A stretch of 20,186 bases of DNA, from positions 1-20,186 of the IMG/VR virus record IMGVR_UViG_3300042695_000731. The stretch is one strand, 5' to 3'. A model generated the notes under the pieces. That model ran no database searches. It saw nothing but the letters and a program-made list of their open reading frames with translations, and was not told the DNA's origin. Shown one piece after another: positions 475 to 7,596 of the stretch (its first letter is position 1; each line of letters begins with the position of its first letter). The stretch comes from a virus. Position numbers and translations under genes: made by a program.

Positions 475-782
475 GCCACCCTCCATTCCCTCTCGCCCCG
501 TCCACTCGCACTCGCCACAAGCCGTCCCGTCTCAACGATCCTCCCAGCCCGTGCAAGCTCACCGAGTCGCTTGTTGACTTGGTGCCCCAGCAGCCCACAT
601 CGAGCAGCGATGCCTGACGCCCCGGCTGGGCCGTGCGACAGCGACTCAAGGATCGCCGCGTGGTGCTCGCCCTGGAACGTCTTGACGCTTGCGGCTGCGG
701 CCTTGCTCGTCACCGGATCGGTGCGGCGAAACAGCGGCAGCGTGTCTTCGATGTCTGGCGTGATGTAGTGGGGGCGGGTCAT
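471..782 (-). CDS. Winged helix-turn-helix phage protein
   Basis: This 103-residue protein has an N-terminal phage signature, DPVTSKAAAASV, followed by a helix that ends in a QGEHHAAIL-type segment. Then comes a winged-helix-like region (GASGIAARCG, HQVNKRLGELARAGRIVETG) and an RxxxG-type wing near the C-terminus. I recognise this arrangement from many small phage early proteins that resemble the C-terminal domain of replication or regulatory wHTH proteins. It is translationally coupled on both sides: its ATG overlaps the methyltransferase TGA region at 779-782, and its TGA overlaps the HNH ATG at 471-474. It probably binds DNA. The target cannot be read from the sequence. Confidence 0.75.
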   Translation of the reverse strand: MTRPHYITPDIEDTLPLFRRTDPVTSKAAAASVKTFQGEHHAAILESLSHGPAGASGIAARCGLLGHQVNKRLGELARAGRIVETGRLVASASGRGEREWRVA

Positions 783-1675
783 GCAACAGCCTCCGGTGCA
801 TCAAACAGCGTCCTGCTGTTCGCCTGGTGCGTCCGCTCTGCCTTCGCCAGATTCTTCAATGCCTGAGCGTGGTACTCGGGCTTCAGTTCGCAGCCGTAGA
901 AGCGGCGGCCTTGCTGCAGCGACACGTATCCCTCGCTGCCTATGCCGGTGAACGGCGAGAACACCACCTCACCGGGATTGCTGTACAGCCTGACGAGCCT
1001 GTCAATGACATCCAGCTGAAGCGGGCAGATGTGCTTCGTGTCCTCTTCGCTGCGTGCCTCTTTGACGTTCAGCGTGTTTGTCTCGCGGATGTCGCTCCAG
1101 CAGCATTCAGCCCAGTCAATCCACTCGTTGCGTGAAACGTCGCCATCGGAGTCGATGGCTACTTCGTTCTCGCCCGGCGCACGGAACTTGATGAGGTAGT
1201 CGGGCAGGCATCCACGCTGCTTCGCCCTGTCGCTCTCCAAGCCAGCGAACTGCAACTCACGGCTGCGGGTGCGTATTGCCTGTGCCTGCGGATTCTTCCG
1301 CACCACCCAGTCATATTCGTAGACGAGCCCGGCACGCTCGCCGAGGCGGATGTTGAGTCCACGGTAGTCGTGCAGGCCGACTTCGCCGGAACGCTTGAGC
1401 CTCGGGATCTGCATGACGTGGACGACGACAGCCCGGCCAGGCTTCAGCACGCGGGCCAGCCCGCGAAAGAAGTAAGACAGGTGTATCTTGGCTTCGCCTT
1501 TCATGTTCTCGCTGTTGCCGATGTCCTCGGCCTTCGAGGTGTACGAGAACAGGCTCGGGAACGGCGGCGAGAAGACAGAGAAATCCACCGAATGCGGCGG
1601 CATTTCTTCCAGCATGTGCGGGATGCAGTCGCCATGATGAACGGCGTACTTCTGGTCAGTTGGTAGAAGATTCAT
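779..1675 (-). CDS. Site-specific DNA methyltransferase (SPPF type), orphan
   Basis: This 298-residue amino-methyltransferase would use S-adenosylmethionine to methylate an exocyclic amine of A or C in DNA. The catalytic motif IV is SPPF near residues 36-39. The SAM-binding motif I comes late, as SPFTGIGSEGY near residue 250, followed by FYGCELKPEY. This order (IV before I) is the beta-class layout. The SPP variant is more typical of N4-cytosine enzymes, but N6-adenine cannot be excluded. I chose the ATG at 1675 because AGGAGGA lies 8 to 9 bases upstream. The longer frame up to 1741 would add 22 residues that do not look like the family. It overlaps the end of the helicase gene by 20 bases. 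No matching restriction endonuclease is visible, so protection from host restriction or regulation is the likely role. Confidence 0.9.
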   Translation of the reverse strand: MNLLPTDQKYAVHHGDCIPHMLEEMPPHSVDFSVFSPPFPSLFSYTSKAEDIGNSENMKGEAKIHLSYFFRGLARVLKPGRAVVVHVMQIPRLKRSGEVGLHDYRGLNIRLGERAGLVYEYDWVVRKNPQAQAIRTRSRELQFAGLESDRAKQRGCLPDYLIKFRAPGENEVAIDSDGDVSRNEWIDWAECCWSDIRETNTLNVKEARSEEDTKHICPLQLDVIDRLVRLYSNPGEVVFSPFTGIGSEGYVSLQQGRRFYGCELKPEYHAQALKNLAKAERTHQANSRTLFDAPEAVA

Positions 1676-3113
1676 GAAACATTTCCTCCTGCTCTCGGGT
1701 GTCGGCCTCGACGCGACGTGCCTTACGCAGCACGTTCTCAACCATCGGGCGTTCGATGTCGGTCACTGGGATATGCACGTTCAGCGGGCGAGTTGATCCA
1801 ACTCGGTTGGAACGCTTAACAGCCTGGTAATACTCCTCGTAGGAGTCCTGCAATCCGCTGAACACTTGCCGCGTGCAGATTTGCAGATTGAGTCCGAAGC
1901 CGAGAATCTTCGGCTTGGTGATGAGCACCTTGATTCGTCCAGCCTTGAACTCGTCAACGAGCCGCTGGCGTTCGTCCTGTGGCGTCTTGCCGTCGATGCT
2001 CGCAGCATCCGGCATCATCGCGGCGAGCATGTCCTGCTCGTCGTTGTAGCGGCACCAGATGATGGTGCTTTCAGTCGGCCACTCTCGCACCATGTCAACG
2101 ATGTACTGTGGCTTGATGCTGCTTTCGCACTTCGCCATACGCGAGAGCTTCGCCCTGGTGGTAATGCCGCCGAGTTGCGTGACAAACAGCTGCCCGGTGA
2201 TGGCTTGAACTGCTTTGTCCTGCTCGGCAGAAAGCCGCACGTCGTCAATGTGGACGTGAATGGGCGGGATGTTGTGGACGTTGTCGGCCCAGCCGTAGGT
2301 GCTCGGGTCAGTTAGAAAGATGCACCAGTGAGACAGTGCCTTGTAGAACGGCCTCAGTGCGTGCGGCTTGAGTTCCCATCGTTCCATCGTCTGCCCGCGA
2401 TTGATGAAGAACTTCGCGAGGAACGAATTGACGTTTGGGAAGGCGTCCAGAAACACGGCGTGATTCGCGTACTCAATGCGGTCATTGGGTGCCGGCGTGC
2501 CAGTCAGTGCCAGCTTCCATTCCACGCCTGCCCCGATGCGTAGGCACACCTGGCCCCATTTGCCGTAGTGACTCTTGAGCATCGACGACTCGTCGAGGAT
2601 GAGCCCGCCGAGGTTGCCGTCTGGCGTGTCGTCACGCAGTGCGTCGTAGTTCGTGATGCCGAGACGCCCGCCGGGCTTCTTCATCCACTTGGCGAGATCC
2701 TTGGCGGCTACCTGCTCGATGGGCAGCGTGTCGCCGTAAAACTTCTGAGCCTCGGCAATCGTCTGTGCCACCACCATGAGCGGCGACACAATCAGCACCG
2801 GCTTTTTCGGGCACGCCTCGCGGACGTGCCGAGCGAACTCCAACAGCATCAGCGTCTTGCCAAGCCCGCAGTCAGCGAAGATGGCGTATCGCTTCTTCTC
2901 TACTGCCGTGCGGACGATGTCGCGTTGGTAGTCAAACAGGCCAGGCCGAGGCTCGTAGGCTGACGTCTTTGCCTTCTTCGCCTTAACGCCGATGTCGCCT
3001 GCGTACTCGTCAGGGAACCACGCCATCCTGCCGTGAATCTCGTATCGCGGAAGCGACTTGATGCGGAGGAACTTGCGGTATGAGTCAATCGTGTCGTCAA
3101 GATAAATCTGCAC
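1656..3113 (-). CDS. SNF2/superfamily 2 phage helicase
   Basis: This 485-residue SF2 ATPase has two RecA-like lobes. Lobe 1 shows a Q-like motif FDYQRDIV near residue 60, Walker A DCGLGKT (81-87), motif Ia IVSPLMVV, Walker B LDES (173-176) and motif III LTGTP (203-207). Lobe 2 shows IIWCRYNDEQ, then ITKPKILGFGLNLQ, and motif VI QAVKRSNRVGS in place of the usual QxxGRxxR. It would use ATP to remodel duplex DNA during phage replication or recombination. I chose the GTG at 3113 because GGAAAGGG sits 6 bases upstream. The frame is open for a further 33 codons with a Cys-rich composition and no good start. It follows a roughly 160-base gap after the small gene ending at 3276 and leads into the methyltransferase gene. 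Confidence 0.9.
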   Translation of the reverse strand: MQIYLDDTIDSYRKFLRIKSLPRYEIHGRMAWFPDEYAGDIGVKAKKAKTSAYEPRPGLFDYQRDIVRTAVEKKRYAIFADCGLGKTLMLLEFARHVREACPKKPVLIVSPLMVVAQTIAEAQKFYGDTLPIEQVAAKDLAKWMKKPGGRLGITNYDALRDDTPDGNLGGLILDESSMLKSHYGKWGQVCLRIGAGVEWKLALTGTPAPNDRIEYANHAVFLDAFPNVNSFLAKFFINRGQTMERWELKPHALRPFYKALSHWCIFLTDPSTYGWADNVHNIPPIHVHIDDVRLSAEQDKAVQAITGQLFVTQLGGITTRAKLSRMAKCESSIKPQYIVDMVREWPTESTIIWCRYNDEQDMLAAMMPDAASIDGKTPQDERQRLVDEFKAGRIKVLITKPKILGFGLNLQICTRQVFSGLQDSYEEYYQAVKRSNRVGSTRPLNVHIPVTDIERPMVENVLRKARRVEADTREQEEMFHESSTN

Positions 3114-3275
3114 TGGGAACCCTTTCCTGTTGTGTATTGGCCCCGTCTCGTGGGGCATCCCGGCTGCGTTACCCGTTGGAGTCGGGCCGCAGCTGCGGCA
3201 GTTACTCGCCACCGATCCGCTGGGCGGCCAATGGTGCCTTGGATCGCAGCACCTACGGCAATGGCGTGCCGGTCG

Positions 3276-3532: not shown

Positions 3533-4030
3533 TCAGAACGGGATGTCATCGGCACCAGCCGCAGCCTTGAACGTCGCCGCAGCCTTCTGCGGGAGCGTCT
3601 GACGCTTGGGTGCTGCCGGCTTGGCGACCAGCGGCACGTACTTCTTCACCACCGCCGACACGTTGCCAGACTTGGACGTGTAGTGAACGACCTCGACCGT
3701 CACTTCCCGTCCTTCGATGTCGCTGGGCACGACACGCAGCGTGTTGCCATCCGGCACGATGCCGAGAGCGTCGGCCAACTGCTTCGCCATCCACGGCAGA
3801 TGCTTCGGCAAGTCGTGGAAGACGAACTTGTGGTTGCCGACAGCCAGCCGCAGCTTCAGGCAGATGCCGTCAGGGTTGCTGGTCTCGTCCACCTTCCACT
3901 GATTCGGGCCTTCCTCGGCCTTCTTGATTACCGCCGTGTGCGTGCCGACCGGCACGATGGTTCGCTCCTCGGGCAGCGTCTTGTGAACGTCAGCCGGGAA
4001 GTCCTCGTCGATGTTCATGTCCCAATCCAT
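3533..4030 (-). CDS. DUF669-like protein with SSB-type acidic tail
   Basis: This 165-residue protein has a beta-rich body (VPVGTHTAVIKKAEEG, then ICLKLRLAVGNHKFVFHDLP and REVTVEVVHYTSKSG), a basic Ala/Lys linker, and a final DDIPF. That ending is the acidic-aromatic tip by which single-stranded DNA-binding proteins dock partner enzymes. The body and neighbourhood match my memory of DUF669 proteins, which lie next to Sak4-type ATPases in phages and are thought to bind single-stranded DNA. The ATG at 4030 follows GAAAGGA. The gene lies 18 bases downstream of the ATPase stop. The family call is moderate; the tail is seen directly. It could also be a phage SSB of another fold. Confidence 0.75.
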   Translation of the reverse strand: MDWDMNIDEDFPADVHKTLPEERTIVPVGTHTAVIKKAEEGPNQWKVDETSNPDGICLKLRLAVGNHKFVFHDLPKHLPWMAKQLADALGIVPDGNTLRVVPSDIEGREVTVEVVHYTSKSGNVSAVVKKYVPLVAKPAAPKRQTLPQKAAATFKAAAGADDIPF

Positions 4031-4048: not shown

Positions 4049-4924
4049 TTAGAGAGTGAGTCCGTTCCGCTTGTCCGTGATCGCTGCCGCCAGTTCCGTC
4101 GCTGTCGCCTGCGAGATCCGCCCCTCGGTCAACCGCTGGGCAATCCGCTGGTTCAGTCTGTCGAGCACGTCAACGCTGGTGGCGTCGCTGATCGCCTTCC
4201 TCGCACCGTCGATGACCGTCTGATCCTCGAGCGGCTTGCCGCCAGAGAGCCACTCGGCGATCCGCTCGCCGGTCTGGACGTTGATGGGCTTGGGATCGCC
4301 AGCGAACAGGCCCGTGCGGTCCTTGCTGACCGTCGCGTAGTGCCCGTCATGGATCAGGTCCAGGACGGTGGTGAACTCAAACTCCAGCCCGTCGCGGGCT
4401 TCCAGCTTCATCCCGAGTTTCGCCACCTTCTTCTTGCCGTGGTCGTCCACTTGGGCAGTCTCGGTCTTGCTGCGACCAGAGCAGATGACGTGGGCAGGCG
4501 ACCGCAACAACTTGTCCACGAACGCCCGCCAGCGTGGCGTGATGACGCTGAACGCCGACCACGTATTGCCACGAAACTGAGCCTTCGCAACGTCTTCGAG
4601 AAGCTCCAGGCATCCGCCCGAGCCGCTCCAGCAGTGCGTGACGCTGTCCACGATGATGACTTCGTAGCCAGCTTCTTCGGCTGCGGTGATCGCCTCGATG
4701 TACCGCTCTGGCGTGAACGGCGGGCGAAGGTCGATCACGTCGAAGTCGTGCAGGTGCTCGTAGAGATCGCTGCTGCCTTCCTCCGTGTCGATCACCATCG
4801 TCCTGCCGCCAAGCCCCTTGGCGATTTGCAGAGCGCCCCAAGTCTTTCCCGAGCCGCTCGGGCCTGTGAGAAGCAGCCGCAGCTTGGTTGCCGACCGCTT
4901 CGCCTTTCTGATCTGTACCGTCAT
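4049..4924 (-). CDS. Sak4-like RecA-fold AAA ATPase
   Basis: This 291-residue P-loop ATPase has Walker A GPSGSGKT at residues 21-28, an acidic VIDTEEGSS strand at 44-52, Walker B VIIVDS at 89-94 with a following THCW, and a motif ICSGRSKTE that fits the sensor region. This is the pattern of the AAA_24/Sak4 group, short RecA relatives that promote phage strand annealing with an SSB partner. The downstream gene is the likely partner. The ATG at 4924 follows GAAAGGA with 7-base spacing. The frame stays open upstream, and a GTG near 5023 with GGAAAGGAG only 3 bases away could add a 33-residue extension, which I consider less likely. About 140 bases separate it from the preceding gene. Confidence 0.85.
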   Translation of the reverse strand: MTVQIRKAKRSATKLRLLLTGPSGSGKTWGALQIAKGLGGRTMVIDTEEGSSDLYEHLHDFDVIDLRPPFTPERYIEAITAAEEAGYEVIIVDSVTHCWSGSGGCLELLEDVAKAQFRGNTWSAFSVITPRWRAFVDKLLRSPAHVICSGRSKTETAQVDDHGKKKVAKLGMKLEARDGLEFEFTTVLDLIHDGHYATVSKDRTGLFAGDPKPINVQTGERIAEWLSGGKPLEDQTVIDGARKAISDATSVDVLDRLNQRIAQRLTEGRISQATATELAAAITDKRNGLTL

Positions 4925-5067
4925 GTCCGTGTCCTTTCGTGTCTGTCCGTCCTGAAAAAGCCGCTTTCGCATCCTGCTAGGCGGCACGTATTTGCGTCCT
5001 TGCTGCTCCGGTTCCACCGGCTCCTTTCCGCCCGCCTGCGTCCTGCTGGCGAGCGTTCCTTGTGCGT

Positions 5068-5280
5068 TCAGTGCGTGATGTCCTTGGCCGGCACGGCGAG
5101 CCATGCGCCGCCGACGTCGATGGTCAGGCGGTCGCCGTCGATCCACTCGACGTGTCCAGACCACCTTCGCCCAGCCGACAAGCCAGAGACGAAGTCGCCT
5201 ACGGCGGGCGTCTGCTGCGTGCCGTAGGTCTCGGTCATGCCGGCGACGGCGGCGGCGTATTCGTTTGAGTGAGCGTCCAT
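5068..5280 (-). CDS. Small early protein, possibly SH3-like
   Basis: This 70-residue protein has an Ala-rich N-terminus, followed by GDFVSG, WSGHVEWIDGDRLTIDVGG and AWLAVPAKDI. The alternating strands and glycines suggest a small barrel (SH3- or KOW-like), but I do not recognise the family. Two ATGs lie close together. I chose the one at 5280 because AAAGGAG is a normal distance from it but directly abuts the ATG at 5289. It is the first gene after the P1 promoter at 5434-5461, with an unusually long leader of about 150 bases that contains an operator. It is probably the first product of the early leftward transcript. Confidence 0.75.
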   Translation of the reverse strand: MDAHSNEYAAAVAGMTETYGTQQTPAVGDFVSGLSAGRRWSGHVEWIDGDRLTIDVGGAWLAVPAKDITH

Positions 5281-5406
5281 GTGGGTCATCTCCTTTGGTT
5301 GTGGGGTGGAAGTGTACGGCTGAACAGTCGTCGGTCAAGCGTCCGAAAGTGCTGCAAAACAAGCTGTGGAGCGGTTTGTGTTTGTTGGAAATCTGTATAG
5401 TATTTG

Positions 5407-5422
5407 CTAACGACTGCGTTAG
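5407..5422. promoter_or_regulatory. Operator O1, CTAACG palindrome
   Basis: CTAACGACTGCGTTAG is a perfect 6+6 palindrome with a 4-base centre. It lies about +5 to +20 downstream of P1. Its centre is 30 bases from that of O2, close to three helical turns, which would suit cooperative binding. Confidence 0.65.
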
Positions 5423-5433
5423 TTGCGACGAGC

Positions 5434-5461
5434 AAGATAACGCCTGCGTTAGTTCTGTCAA
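5434..5461 (-). promoter_or_regulatory. Promoter P1, leftward early promoter
   Basis: Reading leftwards there is a -35 box TTGACA (5456-5461), a 16-base spacer and a -10-like TATCTT (5434-5439). The spacer is almost filled by operator O2. The predicted start is near 5427 and leads to the gene at 5068-5280 and the recombination operon. Confidence 0.55.
5437..5452. promoter_or_regulatory. Operator O2, CTAACG palindrome variant
   Basis: ATAACGCCTGCGTTAG lies between the -35 and -10 boxes of P1 and overlaps the -10 by three bases. One arm base differs from the consensus. Confidence 0.65.
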
Positions 5462-5694
5462 CGGAGAATGCTTAGGGCTGCGTCAGCAAGGTTGATTGCC
5501 GAACGTCCGAACTGGCGAAGCCGACCGGGCGGCTCCATCTGCGGCGGCATCTGCTGGGCAACGACCTGCGGCGCGAGAGCCTGGCGGTGTGCGATGTCGA
5601 TGGCGGCGATCTCGAATCGCGTCTCGACCAGCAACTCGGCACCGATGGTCATGCAGGCGATGACGAGAGCGGCTTTGAGTGTGTCGCGGAGCAT
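5458..5694 (-). CDS. Small membrane-anchored protein of unknown function
   Basis: This 78-residue protein has a hydrophobic N-terminal segment (LKAALVIACMTIGAELLV, about residues 6-23) that could be an uncleaved signal anchor. A helical region follows, then a Pro/Gln-rich stretch (QMPPQMEPPGRL) and an amphipathic end. Its ATG at 5694 is preceded by GGAAAGGA. The stop codon TGA lies inside the -35 box TTGACA of the next promoter. It lies downstream of the gene at 5752-6051 and probably shares its transcript from P2. I do not recognise a family. A superinfection-exclusion or host-interaction role would fit a lysogeny-region membrane peptide, but that is speculation. Confidence 0.65.
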   Translation of the reverse strand: MLRDTLKAALVIACMTIGAELLVETRFEIAAIDIAHRQALAPQVVAQQMPPQMEPPGRLRQFGRSAINLADAALSILR

Positions 5695-5751
5695 GGCGGA
5701 ATCCTTTCCGTGTGTTGCCCGCCGGCCCAGTTGCCGGCGGGCGTGGTGGTG

Positions 5752-6051
5752 TCAGAGAGCGGCGATGAACGCTTGACTGACTCCGCTGATGTTCATCGTG
5801 AAGCAGCCGTGCAGCATGGCCGAGTAGCCACCGACGCCCGAGCCGTCCGTGCCCCAGATGCTGCCGCCTCGGGCCGCGACCAGCGACAGGATGCCGTAAT
5901 ACTCGCCGTCCAGCTTGACGAACTCGTCGCGGCTGTTGGGCGTGAAGTGCTTGGTGATCGTGACGACGTTTTCACGGCTGCTGATCTTCCAACCAGCCTC
6001 GCGGGCTGCGGCGGCGAACTTGGCGGCGGCGGTCTTGGTCGAGGTCTTCAT
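5752..6051 (-). CDS. Conserved mobile-element protein of unknown function
   Basis: The chosen start gives 99 residues: a basic N-terminus with an amphipathic helix (AAAKFAAAAREAGW), then a compact domain with VVTITKHFTP, a GSIWGTDGSGVGG core and MNISGVSQAF at the end. The GSxWGTDG-GG motif with a final SG-S-xF resembles conserved hypothetical proteins I recall from actinobacterial phages and integrative elements, function unknown. The ATG at 6051 follows GGAGACGAA. The longer frame to 6096 lacks a site and begins in the promoter region. It is the first gene after P2 (6103-6131), whose spacer is filled by an operator palindrome, so it is probably under the same repressor as its neighbours. Confidence 0.75.
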   Translation of the reverse strand: MKTSTKTAAAKFAAAAREAGWKISSRENVVTITKHFTPNSRDEFVKLDGEYYGILSLVAARGGSIWGTDGSGVGGYSAMLHGCFTMNISGVSQAFIAAL

Positions 6052-6102
6052 CGTTTCGTCTCCGGTTCGTCGTCCGCGAGTCTCAATCGCTCGCATGGCA
6101 CC

Positions 6103-6131
6103 ATACTAGCGTTATCGTTAGTTGCTTGCAA
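6103..6131 (-). promoter_or_regulatory. Promoter P2 for the 99-residue protein gene
   Basis: Reading leftwards there is a -35 box TTGCAA (6126-6131), a 17-base spacer and a -10-like TAGTAT (6103-6108). Operator O3 fills the spacer and overlaps the -10 by three bases. Confidence 0.55.
6106..6121. promoter_or_regulatory. Operator O3, CTAACG palindrome variant
   Basis: CTAGCGTTATCGTTAG lies inside P2 at the same offset from the -10 box as O2 and O4. One arm base differs from the consensus, and the 4-base centre differs from the other three. Confidence 0.6.
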
Positions 6132-6172
6132 GGGGGGTGAGGAATTTTTTTCGGAATTCCTGAAAAGCCCCT
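6131..6172. other. Inverted repeat between the HTH gene stop and P2
   Basis: AGGGG pairs with CCCCT (6131-6135, 6168-6172), and GGAATT pairs with AATTCC (6141-6146, 6155-6160). The loop holds a run of seven T on the plus strand. It could attenuate read-through from the HTH gene, but it lacks a classic U tract in that direction. Confidence 0.3.
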
Positions 6173-6422
6173 ATTTCTTGCGGGTTTTCCGCTTTTTCGG
6201 GGTCGCTGGCTTGGCGTCCCGCCTGCCGACAGACCGGGTCGTCAGGGAGCTTTTGAGCGTCTCGACGTCGGTCTTGTGGATCAGCCAGGCTCGCTCGCCA
6301 GCCTTCCAGCCTTTTAGCCGACCGTCACCAAGCAGCAGGCGCACCCATCCATCGGTGCAGCCAGCTTGCTTTGCTGCCTCCGAGACGGTGAGCCACGATT
6401 CGTCGGGTGATGCCACAACCAT
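6171..6422 (-). CDS. Excisionase/MerR-type HTH protein, candidate repressor
   Basis: This 83-residue DNA-binding protein has an HTH_17-type domain at about residues 10-55 (SWLTVSEAAKQAGC, WVRLLLGDGRLKGWK, AWLIHKTDVETL). The layout is that of excisionases and MerR-like N-terminal domains. The tail is very basic (KPATPKKRKTRKK). The ATG at 6422 has no Shine-Dalgarno sequence and lies about 7 bases from the -10 box of P3, so the message may be leaderless. The operator palindrome at 6432-6447 lies inside P3, so the gene looks autoregulated. It is divergent from the integrase. It could be the repressor of the CTAACG regulon, an excisionase, or both. An effector domain is absent. Promoter geometry is seen; the identity of the binding protein is inferred. 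Confidence 0.8.
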   Translation of the reverse strand: MVVASPDESWLTVSEAAKQAGCTDGWVRLLLGDGRLKGWKAGERAWLIHKTDVETLKSSLTTRSVGRRDAKPATPKKRKTRKK

Positions 6423-6428
6423 GCCCCG

Positions 6429-6456
6429 ATACTAACGGCTGCGTTAGCCGAGTCAA
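6429..6456 (-). promoter_or_regulatory. Promoter P3 for the HTH gene
   Basis: Reading leftwards there is a -35 box TTGACT (6451-6456), a 16-base spacer and a -10-like TAGTAT (6429-6434). The predicted start falls on or next to the ATG at 6422, so the message may be leaderless. Operator O4 overlaps the -10. Confidence 0.6.
6432..6447. promoter_or_regulatory. Operator O4, CTAACG palindrome
   Basis: CTAACGGCTGCGTTAG is a perfect 6+6 palindrome inside P3, just upstream of the HTH gene. A bound dimer here would block transcription of that gene. Confidence 0.65.
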
Positions 6457-6514
6457 GCGTTTCCCGCCTAAAAACCGCCCAATTTGCCCGAGGCACCGTC
6501 ACGGCTCTACCTTT

Positions 6515-6580
6515 GTTTGGGTGTACAAAACTCAAATAACCCAAACTCAAGTGGAGGATAGCTCGTTTGGGTTCTGTACA
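6515..6580. repeat. GTTTGGGT repeat cluster upstream of the integrase
   Basis: GTTTGGGT occurs directly at 6515-6522 and 6565-6572, 50 bases apart, and inverted as AACCCAAAC at 6538-6546. Both direct copies are followed by TGTACA (6522-6527 and 6575-6580). The inner pair forms a 9-bp inverted repeat around GGAGGA. These could be integrase or excisionase arm sites, part of attP, or a leader hairpin. There is no convincing -35 box for the integrase promoter here. Confidence 0.5.
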
Positions 6581-6624
6581 TTAGTATACGTCAACTCAGT
6601 AACCTCACGCGATGGAGAATCGAA

Positions 6625-7596
6625 ATGACCAGAATACTACGGGACATCTACGAAAACGAGTACGCAGTGCTGCGGGCACATTCCGACCAGTGCAGGCGGC
6701 AATACCGTCTGACGTTTGCCCGCTGGGCAGACCAACTGAAAACGGAGCCGACAACCGAGCACCTCGACCCGCTGGTGGTTCAGACCTACGTTGCCAGCCG
6801 GCGAGCCGTGCGGTCAGCCGCCACGGCCAGAAAGGACCGAAACCAGATTTCTGCCCTGTGGTCCTACTGTGCCAAGCGAAGATACGTGGACCAGTTCCCG
6901 ACGCTGGCCCAGATACGGGCACCAGGACGCATACCGCGAGGCTACACGGTCGATGAGGTCTCAGCCCTCTTGCGGCAGGCTTTGCAGCGACGGCCCCGTA
7001 TAAAGCCTACCACGCTGCCGCCGCACCTTTTCTTTCCGCCGCTGATCCGGTCATGCTGGGAGACCGCCGAGCGGATCGGCTCGCATCTGGCACTCCGCTG
7101 GCGTGACGTGGACACGACGCAGCGAATCGTCATCTTCCCAGCCGAGGGTCGGAAAGGTGCGACCCGCGACATCCTGCGGACGATCTCAGAGGAGCAGTGC
7201 AAGTGGCTGGAGCAGATCCGAGGCAAGCCTGACGATCTCGTCTGGCCGTGGACGGCTGACAAAAGCACCTTGTGGCACCACTTCGGGCTGCTTTGCAAGC
7301 GGGCAAGCGTCACGAACCGTGGCTTCCACGGGCTGCGTAAGTCAGCGGCCAGCTACATGGCACTTGCCGGCGGTGACGCGGCAGCAACCCAGCTGCTTGA
7401 TCATTCCAATCCTGCCATCACAAAAGCCCACTACATCGACGTAACCATTGCCAAGCCGAAACAGACGGCGATTGACCTGCTGCCACCGCTTGACCTGACG
7501 ACGCCAAAGCCGCCGGCCAGCGAGCAGCCGCCAGAGAAGCCCGCCGACGCCCCGCCTGCGAGCGACGAAAAGCCACCAGAAAACAACGCTACTTGA
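6625..7596 (+). CDS. int: Tyrosine recombinase / phage integrase
   Basis: This 323-residue integrase has an N-terminal SAM-like core-binding domain (about 5-95) and a C-terminal catalytic domain. The catalytic residues are visible: Arg150 in AERIGSHLALRW, a beta-hairpin Lys near 177 in GRKGATRD, His235 and Arg238 in FHGLRKSA, His260 in LDHSNP and the nucleophile Tyr270 in AHYID. It would integrate and, with an excisionase, excise the element at an att site. After residue 285 it has an unusual Pro/Lys/Glu tail (PPASEQPPEKPADAPP). The ATG at 6625 follows TGGAGA with 7-base spacing. It is divergent from the HTH gene, and the 200 bases between them carry an operator and repeated GTTTGGGT elements. 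All catalytic residues are intact, so it is probably active. Confidence 0.95.
   Translation: MTRILRDIYENEYAVLRAHSDQCRRQYRLTFARWADQLKTEPTTEHLDPLVVQTYVASRRAVRSAATARKDRNQISALWSYCAKRRYVDQFPTLAQIRAPGRIPRGYTVDEVSALLRQALQRRPRIKPTTLPPHLFFPPLIRSCWETAERIGSHLALRWRDVDTTQRIVIFPAEGRKGATRDILRTISEEQCKWLEQIRGKPDDLVWPWTADKSTLWHHFGLLCKRASVTNRGFHGLRKSAASYMALAGGDAAATQLLDHSNPAITKAHYIDVTIAKPKQTAIDLLPPLDLTTPKPPASEQPPEKPADAPPASDEKPPENNAT

Follow-up and report, generated by a model that had tools for sequence, protein, structure and literature searches.

Four palindromic sites at the early promoters of an uncultured phage, probable operators of a small winged-helix protein

In a 20,186-bp IMG/VR virus record, referred to below as the window (the whole stretch of DNA that was analysed), the palindrome CTAACG-N4-CGTTAG recurs at leftward promoters, which raises the question of whether its copies form one operator set and which protein reads them. 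The full length of the window was scanned for the palindrome with mismatches allowed. The copies at 5407-5422 and 6432-6447 have no mismatches, and those at 5437-5452 and 6106-6121 have one each, exactly as the initial annotation had listed them; its statement that the window contains no other full copy holds as well, no further site being found elsewhere in the 20,186 bp at two mismatches or fewer. At three mismatches, five extra sites appear, which is the chance level (9 in total versus 5.6 expected). Four sites with at most one mismatch compare to a mean of 0.017 and a maximum of 1 in 300 dinucleotide-preserving shuffles. As a look-elsewhere control, we counted all perfect 6-N4-6 palindromes in the window: there are 12, the 10 others are single copies, and 60 shuffles never contained more than two copies of any such palindrome. 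The palindromes are genuine, and their number greatly exceeds chance expectation.

Three of the sites are located inside the spacers of predicted promoters, and the fourth follows the last of these promoters:

6429-6456, minus strand: promoter P1, predicted by consensus match, with -35 TTGACT (6451-6456), -10 TAGTAT (6429-6434) and a spacer of 16 bp.
6432-6447, minus strand: putative operator of P1, the promoter of the HTH gene, CTAACGCAGCCGTTAG; identical in 9 of 10 relatives measured and in further ones.
6103-6131, minus strand: promoter P2, predicted from sequence, with -35 TTGCAA (6126-6131), -10 TAGTAT (6103-6108) and a spacer of 17 bp.
6106-6121, minus strand: putative operator of P2, CTAACGATAACGCTAG, from the sequence scan.
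5434-5461, minus strand: promoter P3, predicted from sequence, with -35 TTGACA (5456-5461), -10 TATCTT (5434-5439) and a spacer of 16 bp.
5437-5452, minus strand: putative operator O1 of P3, CTAACGCAGGCGTTAT, from the sequence scan.
5407-5422, minus strand: putative operator O2 of P3, shortly past the expected start and 30 bp from O1, a distance kept in 10 of 10 relatives.

Read on the minus strand, with the site in parentheses, P1 is TTGACT-CGG-(CTAACGCAGCCGT TAG)TAT, P2 is TTGCAA-GCAA-(CTAACGATAACGC TAG)TAT, and P3 is TTGACA-GAA-(CTAACGCAGGCGT TAT)CTT. The site thus begins 3, 4 and 3 bases past the -35 box, respectively, and its final three bases coincide with the opening three of the -10 box each time, so that the geometry claimed for the three promoters is recovered at all of them.

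The relatives were collected by a search with the HTH protein (16 viral loci) and by a promoter-operator DNA pattern (20 loci), and 22 records were examined. All four sites, at no more than one mismatch and in the same order, are present in 16 of the 22, many of which are near-copies, with HTH identity to the window extending down to 68%; the scan of related phages that had been proposed as a check thus finds the palindromes conserved. Three sites were found in G015, one in G019 (at a contig edge), and, in the distant relative G020, one site at zero and one at two mismatches. G016 has none within two mismatches, and degenerate GTAACG forms were seen by eye at the same promoters; the P1 operator is degenerate in G015, G016 and others. 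Matches in G021 and G022 lie inside a coding gene and were taken as chance, as were the pattern matches L038/L039, which are a single coding stretch seen twice, an unrelated phage being represented by two records. Among the matches listed, every off-cluster site in these relatives had two mismatches. The P1-P2 distance is 326-328 bp and the O1-O2 distance 30 bp in 10 of 10 relatives, while P2 and O1 are separated by 502-1721 bp because the intervening genes differ.

A combined operator/-10/start-codon pattern returned 56 stretches (18 known and 38 new), and we inspected all the new ones and 10 of the 18 known. Five of the 38 encode HTH_17 proteins (L084, L088, L109, L116, L117). Two of the others are P2-type promoters (L091, L098) and one lies ahead of a different 84-aa frame (L082); the remaining 30 precede frames of at most 17 codons and are chance-like, some of them recurring in several contigs. 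The idea that L091 has the operators without an HTH gene was rejected, as the gene is present there and was missed by the gene caller. The HTH protein was also detected (E<=0.01) in 27 of 50 records that mostly carry a LexA-type DNA-binding domain (DBD) protein. Variant operators include GTAACG (L084), TACCG-N4-CGGTA at P1, P2 and P3 (L209), GTTCCG (L220), and, in L206, L210, L211, L212 and L216, palindromes with a five-base centre.

The first gene of the set, behind P1, is flanked by a divergent integrase gene:

6171-6422, minus strand: 83-aa HTH_17 winged helix-turn-helix (wHTH) protein, Xis/MerR-like, the proposed regulator (Pfam HTH_17; PHROG excisionase families).
6625-7596, plus strand: tyrosine integrase, divergent from the HTH gene (Pfam PF00589, E 2e-12; PHROG 1).

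The 83-aa protein passes the curated Pfam cut-off for HTH_17 (PF12728; 30 bits versus 27, E 6.5e-7). In its structural model (mean pLDDT 71, with residues 11-60 averaging 78-85) the protein folds as a wHTH. The closest structures are Pukovnik Xis, BldC, RacA and RdfS, no Foldseek E-value being below 0.013; MerR proteins, like BldC, are among the fold matches. A wHTH fold encoded beside a tyrosine integrase gene is the arrangement of an excisionase (RDF), and the 83-aa gene has both features. With regard to excisionase direct-repeat sites near attP, TAACG half-sites within 5300-6700 are confined to the four palindromes. Between the HTH and integrase genes (6480-6600), there are repeated GTTTGGGT / TGTACA-like words, possibly part of an attachment site. 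Since the HTH start codon lies 6 nt past the P1 -10 box, the message should be leaderless, and judging from the sequence it probably is; a script that permitted gaps of 5-9 nt placed 27 of 28 records at 6-7 nt. In G055 (L215, L226) the HTH gene is split across two frames with three operators kept, which may be an error or decay. Neither the HTH protein nor the integrase had a match in a collection of 50,697 phage records, in searches at E<=0.1 and E<=1e-5.

The message from P2 begins with a stem-loop and continues into small genes:

6076-6094, minus strand: stem-loop opening the P2 transcript, GCGAG-CGATTGAGA-CTCGC, from sequence and comparison of the relatives' leaders.
5752-6051, minus strand: 99-aa gene, first in an exchangeable cassette after P2, with the ribosome-binding site GGAGACGAAACG-ATG.
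5458-5694, minus strand: 78-aa open frame in the cassette, no family match (Pfam, PHROG).

In 17 of 28 records P2 is followed by a 5-bp stem capped by a TGAG loop, a structure that occurs in 43 of 2000 random stretches. In 13 leaders, 94.9% of stem cells pair (73% in shuffles) and the covariation score is 0.645 versus 0.263, although these leaders were chosen for carrying the loop and 17 of 28 is the fair count. Four of six pairs change on both sides, a count that shuffles often match (295 of 500), and the few stem types among the P2 leaders imply few independent events. The loop is not evident in the leaders of L019, L032, L098, L199, L200, L202, L203, L209, L215, L222, L223 and L229. Where it is found, the stem-loop that opens the P2 message has a TGAGA loop, and the stems vary between phages; Rfam gave no match anywhere in the window. 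Because the P2 message opens with a stem-loop, the start given earlier for the 99-residue gene is right. A 114-aa frame behind P2 was rejected as a leaderless gene, as the leaders carry the stem-loop at that point and L212 has a disrupted frame. The 99-aa gene had no Pfam match. The small genes between P2 and P3 (5462-6102 in the window) are exchangeable and occupy 502-1721 bp across relatives; the cassette of L014 includes a frame resembling a cytosine DNA methylase by eye, and CsrA-like frames were seen by eye in distant relatives (L032:3572-3811, L116:8850-9092, L117:1390-1707).

P3 lies upstream of the early recombination genes, and another promoter directly precedes them:

5311-5338, minus strand: promoter P4, operator-free, predicted from sequence, with TTGACC (5333-5338) and TACACT (5311-5316).
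5068-5280, minus strand: first small gene of the early operon, from sequence, ATG at 5280 behind AAAGGAG.
4049-4951, minus strand: AAA_24 / Sak4-like recombination ATPase (family searches).
3533-4030, minus strand: SSB-like protein, a weak match (PHROG 378, E 0.0012).
1656-3212, minus strand: SNF2-type helicase of the early operon (Pfam search).
779-1741, minus strand: N6/N4 DNA methylase of the early operon (Pfam search).

A P4 candidate is present in 23 of 24 relatives, the exception being G038, as picked by a script with candidates individually unchecked. The P4 spacer carries no TAACG operator, yet is itself similar across relatives (e.g., TGAACGGGCGTAC, TGTTCAGCCGTAC), and is perhaps read by another factor. 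As P4 lacks an operator, part of early transcription may escape, and the recombination operon may not be fully switched by the factor that reads the operators. The initial annotation had the HTH gene, the 99-residue gene and the recombination operon switched together; one trans-acting factor is in agreement with this, whereas the operator-free P4 in front of the operon suggests that the operon may be only partly included. That annotation mentions neither P4 nor the probable lack of a leader on the HTH message nor the stem-loop of the P2 transcript. Neither host genes nor additional phage genes were seen in the operator set.

Do the operators share one reader? We set up 28 records by hand and kept 24 for a covariation test, dropping G060 (no P3 found) and the near-copies G028, G030 and G066; P3 was assigned by hand in G043, G065, G066 and G070, and the HTH-matching records G048, G054, G055, G062, G071 and G072 were left out. 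The P1 and P3 operators within a phage agree at 11.4 of 17 positions, compared to 8.6 in shuffled pairs (p=5e-5, the floor of the test; n=24), and in 11 hand-picked representatives the agreement is 10.7 versus 8.2 (p=5e-5). The operator-free P4 served as a control, in the 23 records that remain because G038 gave no candidate, and showed no covariation (p=0.89 with P1, 0.82 with P3, and 0.66). The same sites at several promoters thus change together, as expected for an operator-repressor set, and the P4 controls do not. Linkage alone hardly makes two separate sites alike, and a common reader is likely: on these sequence comparisons, one trans-acting factor is likely to read the P1 and P3 operators. 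The proposal of one factor for the promoters is therefore supported by site conservation as well as by covariation.

The small HTH protein had been proposed for binding tests at the four sites, and its place as the likeliest regulator is supported, since the operator type tracks it and hardly tracks the phage LexA-like protein. In permutation tests that leave ancestry in, the distance between P3 operators correlates with HTH distance at r=0.50 (p=0.0002, 24 records), to which shared inheritance adds because the HTH gene and the operators are linked. For the LexA-like DBD, r is 0.12 (p=0.04), or 0.11 (p=0.047) with HTH removed; for the integrase, r is 0.31 (the 21 records having an integrase). 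With the integrase removed the HTH correlation is 0.45 (p=0.0008), and with HTH removed that of the integrase is 0.19 (p=0.03). In ten pairs with DBDs 86-100% identical but HTH proteins 26-63% identical, 5-13 of 17 P3 positions differ; conversely, in five pairs with HTH proteins 81-98% but DBDs 42-58% identical, 0-3 P3 positions differ, and two of these five have 7 of 17 positions mismatched between their P1 sites. There is no simple recognition code: the HTH proteins of L116, L117, L222 and L032 are only 22-38% identical to that of the window and the TAACG core is common to them, while L210 and L216 have nearly the recognition helix of the window and different operators. Taken from sequence, it is fairly probable that a single regulator encoded by the phage uses the palindromes as its operators, the likeliest candidate being the 83-aa wHTH protein expressed from P1.

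It is rather unlikely that another phage regulator, unrecognised or off-contig, reads the sites. Most records are fragments, about two thirds of the genes of one large record fall outside the family search, and the HTH-operator correlation could be linkage; however, in the relatives studied the DNA-binding protein found next to P1 is the HTH protein, and it is a better predictor of the operator than the adjacent integrase.

The main rival to the HTH reading remains host LexA, although we consider it unlikely: the sites would be SOS boxes, with host LexA keeping the early promoters shut until DNA damage releases them. Known LexA boxes have a 5-N4-5 layout, which TAACG-N4-CGTTA fits, and the TAACG core is common to very different HTH proteins. 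Among 27 larger records, none has an S24 repressor domain and none has HTH_3 over the cut-off (two matches are under it), which makes host LexA control possible, and LexA-type DBD proteins occur in the phages themselves. In viral contigs, full-length LexA-type genes (L249-L256; the one in L172 is beside a serine recombinase gene) have CTAAC-N4-GTTAG, similar to the half-site, in their own promoters in 7 of 8 cases including the query, but with a spacing 2 bp shorter. The ten pairs with nearly identical phage DBDs, and so perhaps with like hosts, have different operators, and some lineages have five central bases, both of which speak against host LexA. The host itself was not found by searches of genome contigs, plasmids or phage collections; two matches in Streptoalloteichus from the genome-contig search, over 33 residues, were judged unrelated. 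Planctomycetes are a guess, and Planctomycetes LexA does not use the E. coli motif, according to the available part of PMC3108266.

Activation by the HTH protein from inside the spacer, in MerR fashion, is very unlikely. The operator does lie inside the spacer, and the fold search did return MerR proteins and BldC. MerR promoters have an overlong spacer of 19-20 bp, whereas those of P1, P2 and P3 (16, 17 and 16) are near the optimum, and O2 past the start suits repression. Binding by the phage LexA-like DBD protein is extremely unlikely and was set aside, as operators can be identical where the DBDs are 42-54% identical, and can differ where the DBDs are 100% identical. This protein of about 80 aa has a LexA fold, is encoded downstream within the early region, and scores over the cut-off in 5 of 23 records, often ones whose contig extends that far. 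Such LexA DNA-binding domains of about 80 aa without the peptidase part, with varying recognition helices, are common in these phages (L074-L078 and many of L119-L194).

Returning to the HTH protein as the reader, a symmetric pair of it would cover the spacer and three -10 bases at P1, P2 and P3, and would keep RNA polymerase off its own gene (P1), the exchangeable cargo cassette (P2) and P3, which lies upstream of the early recombination genes and has a second operator 30 bp on. Binding to the sites, the dimer state, repression and a role in the lysis-lysogeny decision are what we infer. More broadly, and only tentatively, a single wHTH protein of 75-95 aa (excisionase/MerR fold) with a leaderless message may be the immunity repressor of uncultured temperate phages that have no recognised CI/S24, the protein and its palindromic operators having co-diverged into specificity groups (TAACG, GTAACG, TACCG, GTTCCG and five-base-centre), with the cargo cassette likewise controlled. 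If true, a minimal excisionase-like protein reads palindromes sequence-specifically, unlike the direct-repeat or consensus-free binding of its relatives; the natural variants would be ready protein-operator pairs for testing specificity change, and immunity groups would be predicted among uncultured phages. We found no report of this operator in the open-licence literature within the terms searched.

CI/Cro-type phage switches have tandem operators over early promoters and an autoregulated regulator. The present set shares the tandem operators and, as proposed here, the autoregulation, but its protein has a MerR/Xis fold, and the 27 records lack S24 and HTH_3 over the cut-off. Most probably, the set works like a temperate-phage early control region, with an excisionase-fold protein and palindromic sites. 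Apl of coliphage 186, as described in the available part of PMC7498355, is likewise a small excisionase-type regulator that represses early phage promoters; however, its sites are direct repeats one helix turn apart, bound with low specificity and spreading, whereas the present sites are single or tandem palindromes of highly conserved sequence inside the spacer. RdfS has a wHTH fold and also acts at its own promoter, but has no consensus motif and forms filaments, in the portion of PMC11963761 available. Binding of direct repeats, or binding without a clear consensus, by excisionase-type wHTH proteins in these two partial sources (PMC7498355, PMC11963761) argues against a palindrome-reading HTH protein. 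Pukovnik Xis and BldC have a wHTH fold like that of the present protein, with 18-25% sequence identity in the fold matches. XisF4 of the Pf4 prophage, according to the accessible text of PMC7379572, is an excisionase with a further role in phage transcription next to the integration genes; it opposes a separate repressor, Pf4r, and activates, whereas in the present phages no second repressor was recognised beside the small wHTH protein.
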